A stretch of 64,000 nt of DNA, from positions 1 to 64,000 of the forward strand of contig JAFXZF010000003.1 of NCBI GenBank assembly GCA_017541365.1, written 5' to 3'. Source of the DNA: Prevotella sp. Its GTDB lineage: Bacteria > Bacteroidota > Bacteroidia > Bacteroidales > Bacteroidaceae. Position numbers and translations under genes: made by a program. Positions 27,277 to 30,087 of the stretch are shown here, in pieces. The notes below the pieces were generated by a model. That model saw only the letters and a list, made by a program, of their open reading frames with translations, was not told the DNA's origin and searched no databases. Each line of letters opens with the position of its first letter. The first letter of the stretch is position 1.

Positions 27277-30087
27277 ATGGAATTAGCAAGTAAATACTCT
27301 CCACAGGAGGTAGAGAATAAGTGGTACCAGTACTGGACTGACCATAAGCTGTTTGCCAGCAAGCCTGACGATAGGGAACCTTACACGATAGTGATACCGC
27401 CACCAAACGTGACGGGAGTGCTCCACATGGGACACATGCTCAACAACACCATTCAGGACATCCTTATCCGTAAGGCACGACTGGACGGCAAGAACGCTTG
27501 TTGGGTGCCTGGCACTGACCATGCCTCAATAGCTACGGAGGCGAAGGTGGTGAACAAACTGGCGCAGCAGGGCATAAAGAAGCGTGACCTGACGCGTGAG
27601 GAGTTTCTCAAGCACGCATGGGAGTGGACCAACGAGCACGGCGGCATAATACTGAAGCAGCTCCGCAAGCTGGGTGCTTCATGCGACTGGGACCGCACGG
27701 CATTCACCATGGACGAGAAGCGTTCGGAGTCGGTGATGAAGGTATTCGTGGACCTGTATGAGAAGGGCTACATATACCGCGGACTGCGCATGGTAAACTG
27801 GGATCCGAAGGCGCAGACGGTGCTCTCTACCGAGGAGGTGATATACCGTGAGGAGAAGTCGAAGCTGTACCACCTGAAGTACTACGTGGCTGATGCTGAC
27901 GTAAACCCCGTGGTGCTGACAGGCGCTGAGGGCGAGGTATGGCACAAGGATGAGAAGGGCTACTACGCAGTGGTTGCCACCACGCGTCCTGAGACCATCA
28001 TGGGCGATACGGCGATGTGTATAAACCCCAAGGACGTGAAGAACCAATGGCTGAAGGGCCACAAGGTGATAGTACCGTTAGTGAACCGCGTGATACCTGT
28101 GATAGAGGACAGATATGTGGACATAGAGTTTGGTACGGGCTGCTTGAAGGTGACACCTGCTCACGACGTGAACGACTACAACCTTGGCAAGACGCACAAC
28201 CTGGAGATAATCGATATATTCAATCCTGACGGCACGATATCGGAGGCTGCTGGCATCTATGTAGGCATGGACCGCATGGTGGTGCGCAAGCAGATAGCCA
28301 TAGACCTCGAAGAGGCGGGGCTGATGGACCACGTGGAGGACTACGATAATAAGGTGGGATACTCTGAGCGCAACCAGGACACGGCAGTGGAGCCTCGCCT
28401 GTGCAAGCAGTGGTTCCTGAGCATGCAGCACATGGCTGACATAGCTCTGCCTCCTGTGATGAACGGCGAACTGAAGTTCTACCCAACGAAGTATGTGACC
28501 ACATACAAGAACTGGCTGGAGAACATACAGGACTGGTGCATATCACGTCAGCTGTGGTGGGGACATAGGATTCCGGCGTACTTTATTGCCCCCCTCCAAC
28601 TCCCCCCTTCAGGGGGAGAGTCCCTGGGTGGGAACGGGAACGTTAACGAAAACGATAACGATAACGATAACGAAAACAATAACGAAAACGGGGAGGAGCG
28701 CTATGTTGTTGCCCTGACAAAGGAGGAGGCGCTGAAGAAGGCGCAGGAGAAGTATGGCAAGGACATCACGATGGACCAGCTCCATCGTGACGAGGATGCC
28801 CTCGACACATGGTTCTCATCATGGCTGTGGCCTATATCACTCTTTGACGGTATCAACAACCCTGGCAACGAGGAGATAAAGTACTACTACCCAACGGCTG
28901 ACCTGGTGACGGGTCCGGACATCATATTCTTCTGGGTGGCAAGGATGATAATGGCGGGCTGCGAATACGAGAAGCAGATACCATTCCGCAACGTATATTT
29001 CACAGGTATAGTACGTGACAAGCTGGGCAGGAAGATGAGTAAGTCACTGGGCAACTCACCTGACCCACTGGAACTGATAGAGAAATTCGGTGCGGACGGT
29101 GTGCGCATGGGTATGATGCTCGCAGCTCCTGCTGGTAACGACATACTCTATGATGATGCCCTCTCGGCTCAGGGTATGAACTTCTGTAACAAGATGTGGA
29201 ACGCCTTCCGACTGGTACAGGGATGGGAGACGGAGGACAAGGCGGCATCGGACTCCAACAAGAAGGCTATAGCATGGATGAACGCCAAGATAAGGAGCGT
29301 GTATGCGGAGATAAACGACGACTACTCTAAGTACCGCCTTAACGAGGCACTGATGGCTGCATTCAAACTCTTCACGGATGAGTTCTCGGGTTGGTACCTG
29401 GAGATGATAAAGCCAGCATACCAGTGTCCTATCGACAAGGAGACGCTGGAGGCTACGCTCGACATATTCGACAAACTGCTGCACATAATACACCCATTCA
29501 TGCCATTCATCACCGAGGAACTGTGGCAGCACATCGCTGAACGCAAGGACGGTGAGTCGCTGATGGTGGATGTTTTCAAACTCGATGCTCCAACGGAGGC
29601 TGACGAGAAGCTGATGGTAGACTTCGAGGAGATGAAGCAGATAGTATCAGGTGTGCGTGGTGTAAGGCAGACAAAGAACATCGGTCCTCGTGAACCGCTC
29701 ACTCTCGAGGTGATAGTGACGGGCGACGACGACAAGGTGATAACACAGTGCCCCGCTCTGGGACCCGTCATCACGAAGATGGCAGGACTCGGCGACATAC
29801 AGTACGTACAGCAGAAGGGCGAGGGTTCGTCGGCATTCATGATAGGCACTCGCGAGTATGCCGTGCCTCTGGGCGACCTCATCGACGTAGAGGCAGAGAT
29901 AGCCAAGGCGGAGGCTCAGCTGAAGCATCTCGAGGGATTCCTCATGGGGGTAAGGAAGAAGCTCTCCAACGAACGCTTCGTAGCCAATGCCCCAGAAGCC
30001 GTAGTGGCTCTGGAGCGCAAGAAGGAGTCGGACTCGCTGGAAAAGATAGCTGCGCTGAAACAGACTATCGCTGAACTAAAAAAGTGA
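27277..30087 (+). CDS. valS: valyl-tRNA synthetase with a low-complexity insertion
   Basis: Charges tRNA-Val. Of 936 residues, HMGH (50-53) is the class I HIGH motif, the editing CP1 domain follows (about 190-400), KMSKS is at 586-590, and the anticodon domain and C-terminal coiled coil (about 870-936) are complete. Between WWGHRIPAYF and the normal continuation YVVALTKEEAL lies an extra stretch (residues about 437-472) made of PLQLPPSGGESLGG plus NEND repeats. It is encoded by a C5/G5 palindrome followed by AACGAT/AACGAA hexamers. The frame is intact, so the enzyme should still be made. The next gene overlaps the stop by 4 bp. Confidence 0.97.
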   Translation: MELASKYSPQEVENKWYQYWTDHKLFASKPDDREPYTIVIPPPNVTGVLHMGHMLNNTIQDILIRKARLDGKNACWVPGTDHASIATEAKVVNKLAQQGIKKRDLTREEFLKHAWEWTNEHGGIILKQLRKLGASCDWDRTAFTMDEKRSESVMKVFVDLYEKGYIYRGLRMVNWDPKAQTVLSTEEVIYREEKSKLYHLKYYVADADVNPVVLTGAEGEVWHKDEKGYYAVVATTRPETIMGDTAMCINPKDVKNQWLKGHKVIVPLVNRVIPVIEDRYVDIEFGTGCLKVTPAHDVNDYNLGKTHNLEIIDIFNPDGTISEAAGIYVGMDRMVVRKQIAIDLEEAGLMDHVEDYDNKVGYSERNQDTAVEPRLCKQWFLSMQHMADIALPPVMNGELKFYPTKYVTTYKNWLENIQDWCISRQLWWGHRIPAYFIAPLQLPPSGGESLGGNGNVNENDNDNDNENNNENGEERYVVALTKEEALKKAQEKYGKDITMDQLHRDEDALDTWFSSWLWPISLFDGINNPGNEEIKYYYPTADLVTGPDIIFFWVARMIMAGCEYEKQIPFRNVYFTGIVRDKLGRKMSKSLGNSPDPLELIEKFGADGVRMGMMLAAPAGNDILYDDALSAQGMNFCNKMWNAFRLVQGWETEDKAASDSNKKAIAWMNAKIRSVYAEINDDYSKYRLNEALMAAFKLFTDEFSGWYLEMIKPAYQCPIDKETLEATLDIFDKLLHIIHPFMPFITEELWQHIAERKDGESLMVDVFKLDAPTEADEKLMVDFEEMKQIVSGVRGVRQTKNIGPREPLTLEVIVTGDDDKVITQCPALGPVITKMAGLGDIQYVQQKGEGSSAFMIGTREYAVPLGDLIDVEAEIAKAEAQLKHLEGFLMGVRKKLSNERFVANAPEAVVALERKKESDSLEKIAALKQTIAELKK
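28588..28692 (+). repeat. REP-like palindrome plus hexamer array inside valS
   Basis: CTCCCCCC TTCA GGGGGAG palindrome (about 28600-28619) with further C/G-rich flanks, then a run of about ten hexamers of AACGAT, AACGAA and AACAAT (about 28639-28690). The total is close to 105 bp, a multiple of three, and it keeps the valS frame. Confidence 0.85.

Follow-up and report, generated by a model that had tools for sequence, protein, structure and literature searches.

An in-frame pair of repeats in the valine--tRNA ligase loop of a Prevotella sp. and the wider presence of such repeats in genes of its lineage

The valS gene of the Prevotella sp. analyzed here carries an in-frame pair of repeats, a short palindromic element followed by an AACGAW hexamer array, inside a loop of valine--tRNA ligase (ValRS), an essential enzyme. 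Comparison with relatives makes it likely that the insert reflects selfish-type DNA gained twice, independently, at a single loop that is permissive and of variable length, and the pair is best explained as one instance of repeats that occur more widely in the genes of this lineage. The phenomenon is of a known kind, that of in-frame palindromes as in Rickettsia and in intragenic REPs; the family and the shared hotspots were not found in the open-licence PMC literature.

The case is well populated, with short selfish-type DNA supplying new sequence to essential proteins. Because empty, filled, and differently filled loops occur in close relatives, the question of whether such sequence is neutral or raw material for protein parts becomes testable in ValRS and in other proteins. 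A note of caution also follows: where a Prevotella protein has a low-complexity stretch, that stretch may be a repeat of recent origin.

The repeat-filled loop of valS

The features located in the window (the whole stretch of DNA that was analyzed, 64,000 nucleotides) are listed in Table 1. In translation, the ValRS loop reads RIPAYF-IAPLQLPPSGGESLGGNGNVNENDNDNDNENNNENGEER-YVVALTKEE with no stop, and the predicted peptide of the insert region is IAPLQLPPSGGESLGG. The palindrome CTCCCCC-cttca-GGGGGAG matched the window once and none of 100 shuffles, while AACGAWAACGAW, with two mismatches or fewer allowed, gave 41 window matches against a shuffle mean of 14.9 and a maximum of 29 (100 shuffles). 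The hairpin and the array are indeed the two repeat families that the first-pass annotation had described as stacked at one valS loop.

Unusual folding energy of the hairpin region was considered and rejected. Given its base composition, the segment comprising the palindrome and its flank (28587-28631) has no unusual stability (z 0.19; 109 of 200 shuffles fold equally well or better). On the protein side, the alignment with Thermus thermophilus ValRS breaks at the loop (query 439 to 501 versus chain 419 to 445), and the AlphaFold model (21 rows) was poor, with a mean pLDDT of 59.

Table 1 Features of the window bearing on the valS insert and on repeats in neighboring genes
Feature	Coordinates	Strand	Basis or remark
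valS, valine--tRNA ligase, 936 aa	27277..30087	+	NCBIfam NF004349 and TIGR00422, both over cut-off
45-bp palindromic insert (15 codons)	28589..28633	+	Filled/empty comparison with L028
Foot of palindromic element, CCCCCCTCCAA	28589..28599	+	Family consensus CCCCTCYAA
Hairpin CTCCCCC-cttca-GGGGGAG	28600..28618	.	Pattern absent from 100 shuffles
AACGAW hexamer array, 8.7 copies, in frame in valS	28639..28690	+	One unit longer than in G001
TIGR02757 gene	33433..34197	+	NCBIfam TIGR02757 over cut-off; site of same kind as valS loop
Hexamer array in TIGR02757 loop	33868..33904	+	Palindrome pair there in G001; short loop in many other relatives
mtaB	37136..38512	-	NCBIfam TIGR01579 over cut-off
Palindrome ACCTCCCC-ctgca-GGGGAGGT, in frame in mtaB	38114..38134	.	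Common to window and G001
ileS	42403..45876	+	NCBIfam TIGR00392 over cut-off
CTCTCAA heptamer array in frame in ileS (SSLSSQLSTLNSQLP)	43068..43097	+	Also in G001 and G009
AACGAW hexamers in frame in ileS (KNENDNDNE)	43265..43291	+	Also in G001, not in G009

Empty, filled, and differently filled loops in relatives

The ValRS relatives compared comprise the 80 best of 585 loci that code for one and the 120 best-listed of 7996 proteins. One of the loci, L028, whose ValRS is 93% identical, contains the exact empty site (junction TTTATTG-ACGGGAACGTTAACG), which delimits the palindromic part of the window valS as a clean 45-bp insert. No target-site duplication was found at this insert, the single clean filled/empty site. 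On parsimony, the difference would be due to insertion in the window lineage and not to loss in L028, and the intact reading frame suggests that ValRS tolerates the insert.

These comparisons also refine what the first-pass annotation had proposed. Its length divisible by three is borne out by the 15-codon difference between filled and empty sites. A palindrome is present as described, but the unit inserted is the 45-bp segment and not the palindrome alone. Likewise, both families do occupy one loop but through separate events, the array being a separate and older one that stands alone in L028. The start of the hexamer tract is common to L028 and the window, and the array is therefore older than the palindrome in this lineage. 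The idea that palindrome and array form one common composite unit was rejected on two grounds: L028 has the array but no palindrome, and hairpins outside genes show no enrichment in the vicinity of arrays (see below). Finally, an insert conserved in length and sequence across distant Bacteroidales, against which the first-pass annotation had set its reading, was looked for in the ValRS alignments and is not what is seen.

The nearest genome compared, G001, has the same valS insert on contig C129 with one hexamer fewer. Elsewhere the loop is occupied in other ways or not at all: a palindrome-like filler in another reading frame, NPSNSPEGGET, in P0003 (95% identical; protein only); hexamers only in P0004 and L028 (93%); the array first and a palindrome-like filler after it in P0063 (protein only); paired palindromes in L024; and a short loop in G009, as in many relatives. 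The fillers vary in sequence, frame, order, and length among near relatives. In the FastTree tree, P0003 groups with the window and G001 yet is without the array; given the greater age of the array, its loss or replacement is assumed in P0003. With the loop cut out, the tree of 120 rows requires nine changes for the palindrome and six for the array. The loop labels used on this tree were set by hand, the degenerate case L109 being counted as a palindrome; labels assigned by script were set aside, as these included false palindromes in L015, L019, L076, and L085 and missed degenerate ones.

A dispersed palindrome family

The palindromic element belongs to a family with the foot CCCCTCYAA and the arms CTCCCCC/GGGGGAG, present in 30 to 113 copies in 5 of the 16 genomes searched. 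Copies of CTCCCCN{2,9}GGGGAG, compared with the reversed pattern, numbered 100 to 1 in G009, 113 to 1 in G029, 31 to 1 in both G001 and G004, and 30 to 0 in G017; the other 11 genomes had 0 to 27 copies (two of them none), with 0 to 3 for the reversed pattern. Among 120 genomes of the genus group, sampled evenly from a larger group, 26 contain the strict pattern of foot plus hairpin, CCCCTCYAACTCCCCCN{2,7}GGGGGAG, and none contains its reverse. The element had no exact match in viral contigs.

Foot and arms are constant, and each rich genome is dominated by a single version of the loop (TTTGCAA in G122, ACA in G121, CAA in G009); amplification of one variant in every such genome points to recent spread. 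According to a rule of our own, the foot lies on one side only in 48 of 66 distinct sites, on both sides in 2, and on neither in 16. Inverted doublets occur as well, the feet pointing outward in four of eight close pairs (one pair runs in the same direction and three are unclear).

The copies examined lay in reading frames in 14 of 24 cases in G001 (of 31 genome-wide), 5 of 24 in G009 (of 100), 1 of 16 in G029 (of 113), and 1 of 17 in the stretches fetched from G122, and the genic share of G001 differs from that of the other three pooled (Fisher P = 4e-5), all shares being approximate because genes were called by a simple longest-frame script. Outside G001, in G009, G029, and G122, copies are thus mostly not in genes. 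In G122 (L280-L293) the foot-hairpin motif occurs 79 times, counting both strands; the 17 that were read lie mostly in a longer, well conserved intergenic repeat.

Hexamer and heptamer arrays

The hexamers behave as a tandem simple sequence repeat whose copy number varies between near relatives, as seen in the one 6-bp unit separating the valS genes of the window and G001. On the G001 contigs fetched, 9 of 15 hexamer arrays lie in genes. Heptamer arrays are very common in both genic and intergenic positions, in the window (23896-23957, 31820, 37099, 39597, and 46305) and on the fetched contigs of G001 and G009. The sequence scanned holds 155 arrays with a 7-base consensus, and heptamer units have a degenerate AAYTNTS core in common, scoring at least 5.5 in 35% of cases versus 4% of random heptamers.

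Of 30 coding hairpins on the fetched contigs, 5 have an array within a distance of 60 bp, compared to 0.88 expected (P = 0.002; the valS sites of the window and G001 are one event). Non-coding hairpins show no excess (5 of 23 against 4.6 expected). The simplest reading is that palindromes and arrays share loops through shared tolerance, only some loops surviving insertion.

The same repeats in other genes

From 27187 to 55417 the window is collinear with G001 contig C129, at 94 to 98% in three large pieces and 91 to 93% in two others. Comparison of 26639-55417 with C129 gave 22 gap clusters of at least five columns, the first nine of which precede valS, where the two are not collinear. Three of the 22 fall in frames of at least 200 aa, namely, in the valS array (6 bp), in the TIGR02757 loop (63 bp), and at the TIGR02757 3′ end (64 bp). 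The TIGR02757 loop contains a third filler in G009 and is shorter in most remaining rows of an alignment comprising 17 of 23 loci (six failed the motif filter of the script), two of the 17 being the same G001 gene.

In mtaB, the residues of the palindrome are absent from the eight other aligned rows (a tenth locus, L218, dropped out). In an alignment of 9 rows, a purF-like loop is filled by paired palindromes in G001, by sequence of the heptamer type in G009, and by residues resembling a palindrome in G029. The genes that hold G001 copies include valS, TIGR02757, purF-like, and dsbD-like ones. All seven of the palindrome-bearing G001 frames that were scanned match a known family at E 1e-10 or better, and only TIGR02757 passes the curated cut-off, so that purF-like, dsbD-like, RluA-type, and similar names denote the best match only. 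Together with the 45-bp filled/empty site of valS, these in-frame copies in conserved genes support the first-pass view, drawn by analogy with Rickettsia palindromic elements, of an element that invades coding DNA and is tolerated there.

A gene of 527 codons for an RluA-type pseudouridine synthase (G001:C39:20811-22391; L137/L138) was observed to hold four hairpins and three heptamer arrays.

Proposed origin of the valS insert

We propose that the AACGAW tract arose first at the ValRS loop and has since changed by six-base steps, which keep the reading frame. The one-unit difference from G001 is observed, and slippage would be its cause. A single 45-bp copy of foot plus hairpin would then have landed just upstream of the tract, in an ancestor that the window organism and G001 shared not long ago. 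This copy has a length divisible by three, and five of the six frames are free of stops; hence, the enzyme would have survived, as the intact frame suggests. The element would spread in trans by means of an enzyme, perhaps acting on single-stranded hairpin DNA. We infer such mobility because the one clean site lacks a target duplication, variants at high copy number are typical of single genomes, and inverted pairs occur. Gene-breaking copies would be lost by selection and tolerant loops would be hit repeatedly, by palindromes and arrays alike, with no host benefit needed. Several observations count against this reading: copies outside G001 lie mostly outside genes, the G122 motif belongs to a longer intergenic repeat, 11 of the 16 genomes have 27 copies or fewer, no mobilizing enzyme was identified among the Y1 loci scanned, and P0003 calls for a loss or replacement of the array.

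Probable exchange of loop alleles between species

Other Prevotellaceae have a loop allele consisting of a palindrome, IPEGAFVVAExEEAYKLAxEKYPxL, a second palindrome or none, and FTLRQDEDA. Rows related to this allele are L033, L051, L062, L086, L109, and P0121-P0220. A region search gave 100 relatives, of which the 58 with distinct loops and at least 860 residues were added to the ValRS tree. In the tree built from the rest of ValRS, the motif-marked allele appears in 63 of 178 rows and requires 26 changes, at least 20 of them forced by supported branches. P0134 and L045 share 422 of 437 and 413 of 426 positions on either side of the loop (97%) and 19 of 60 within it, while P0134 shares 55 of 60 loop positions with the more distant P0135 and 337 of 426 downstream. 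A single origin of 12 allele rows was rejected (p-AU 1.7e-7, on 27 rows that we picked after seeing the tree). The scattered ValRS allele reads as a probable case of short-tract exchange between species, involving about 60 codons. The exchange does not depend on palindromes, as alleles that have no second palindrome are likewise scattered.

It is a serious possibility, somewhat short of an even chance, that the loop has been shaped mainly by homologous recombination, with whole alleles, some of them bordered by palindromes, swapped among Prevotellaceae and fresh insertion a rare event. The scatter of the allele over the tree, the near-identical flanks and differing loops of P0134 and L045 with the reverse in P0134 and P0135, and the post hoc rejection of one origin all speak for it. 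They do not account for P0003 and P0004, in which the residues following the insert are almost unchanged and the insert itself differs, nor for the clean 45-bp difference from L028, and exchange at valS leaves the copies in many unrelated genes unexplained. We are more doubtful about a broader turnover system in the Prevotellaceae, in which hairpins and arrays would seed permissive loops of core enzymes and palindrome-bordered alleles would then move between species as short coding cassettes, giving essential proteins new loop sequence laterally, with the palindromes perhaps promoting exchange.

An adaptive role as an unlikely alternative

It seems unlikely that the insert is adaptive, in the sense that ValRS activity, translation, or solubility would be tuned by the tract rich in N, D, and E or by the hairpin, with selection acting on loop variation. 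The repeated occupation of the loop, the persistence of arrays in several lineages, and the genic location of most hexamer arrays on the fetched G001 contigs (9 of 15) would be in line with such a role, but the filler differs in sequence, frame, order, and length among near relatives, many of which have a short loop. The same filler types recur, moreover, in unrelated proteins, and a six-base unit keeps the frame by itself. Two gains of selfish-type DNA at a permissive loop, our preferred reading, would call for no such function.

The mobilizing enzyme and the relation to REPs

In its build, a short palindrome dispersed in many copies, the element resembles a REP. It has neither the GTAG nor the CGTC tag, its foot being CCCCTCYAA, and in the 31 Y1 loci scanned no Y1 gene is flanked by it on both sides; for these reasons it is not filed as a REP. 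The term "REP-like" in the first-pass annotation is accurate for the build (short palindrome, foot, inverted pairs) and does not extend to the foot sequence or to a two-sided Y1 gene.

The Y1 transposase family PF01797 matched in 8 of 12 and in 13 of 20 genomes scanned, copy-rich ones included (G029, G017, G010, G121, and G122). Among the 12, there was no match in copy-rich G009 (90% complete), G001 (78%), and G004 (99%) nor in G025, and among the 20, none in G028, G068, and five more. G001, G028, and G068 are at most 81% complete, which weakens the meaning of the absence there. With PF01797 missing from some copy-rich genomes and present in others, the evidence is mixed. G011 has two strong Y1 matches yet one palindrome.

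The CTCCCC element was found on both sides of the Y1 gene in 0 of the 31 Y1 loci scanned. A single C-rich hairpin is present in five of them (L166, L263, L268, L276, and L278). In nine, another hairpin is found twice: CCCAGGGC/GCCCTGGG in L164, L263-L265, L273, and L274; TGAACCCG in L173; CGTGCGGATT in L267; and GTACACAAAAGG in L269, all different from the CTCCCC element. Mobilization by a RAYT was thus disfavored after test, as PF01797 is missing from three copy-rich genomes and no bounded Y1 gene occurs in the 31 loci.

That the elements are nonetheless true REPs moved by a RAYT (Y1) transposase we consider quite improbable. The short palindrome with its one-sided foot in 48 of 66 sites, the outward feet in half of the close pairs (4 of 8), the five copy-rich genomes with PF01797, and the lone C-rich hairpin in five Y1 loci are what such elements might present. 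Against this stand the three copy-rich genomes with no PF01797 match (G009, G001, and G004), the 31 Y1 loci with none flanked on both sides, the nine that have a different hairpin twice, the single palindrome of G011 with its two Y1 matches, and a foot that is neither GTAG nor CGTC.

An artefact of assembly or binning is scarcely credible, for although repeats are error-prone and the nearest genome, G001, consists of 190 contigs at 78% completeness, the insert is also on G001 contig C129 with its frame kept, and the window protein cluster lies on 5 contigs and a 99% identical cluster (13 member sequences) on 6.

Relation to known systems

The Rickettsia palindromic elements (RPE) of Ogata and Claverie are reported to lie in frame in unrelated conserved protein genes and to be tolerated there. 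The element described here resembles RPE in that its palindromes also occur in frame in unrelated conserved genes. It is set apart from them by another phylum, probably another sequence, a 45-bp unit, many intergenic copies in sister genomes, and tandem arrays in the same loops.

PMC3733652 presents intragenic GTAG/CGTC REPs as end-tagged short palindromes, found as singletons and inverted dimers, by which proteins are "decorated" in frame; "Prevotella" is absent from its main text. Short palindromes with a tag or foot at one end, singletons and inverted dimers, and in-frame decoration are common to those REPs and to our element, which unlike them has no GTAG/CGTC tag and does not bound a Y1 gene in 31 loci. 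PMC6006769 describes a RAYT subclass, 2.6, with atypical repeats in Bacteroidetes. The likeness lies in the Bacteroidota host and in unusual secondary structures dispersed in the genome; in contrast to that subclass, PF01797 is missing here from three copy-rich genomes, though present in others, and the hairpins found twice at Y1 genes are different ones. No description of this family in Bacteroidales was found in PMC3733652, PMC6006769, PMC3686654, or PMC4679880, and the palindrome family with its shared hotspots was likewise not found in the open-licence PMC literature.

In describing Mrazek 2007, PMC4679880 reports long simple sequence repeats with heptamers as the most abundant class and with units divisible by three favored in genes, two traits in which the arrays of this lineage agree with them. 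Unlike the repeats described there, the arrays here share sites with palindromes, and their heptamer units have the AAYTNTS core.

As a separate observation, window 7510-10026 encodes a Wzc/Ptk-like protein, so named by its look, with a Y/G-rich tail; a similar YGKYG array is present in G009.
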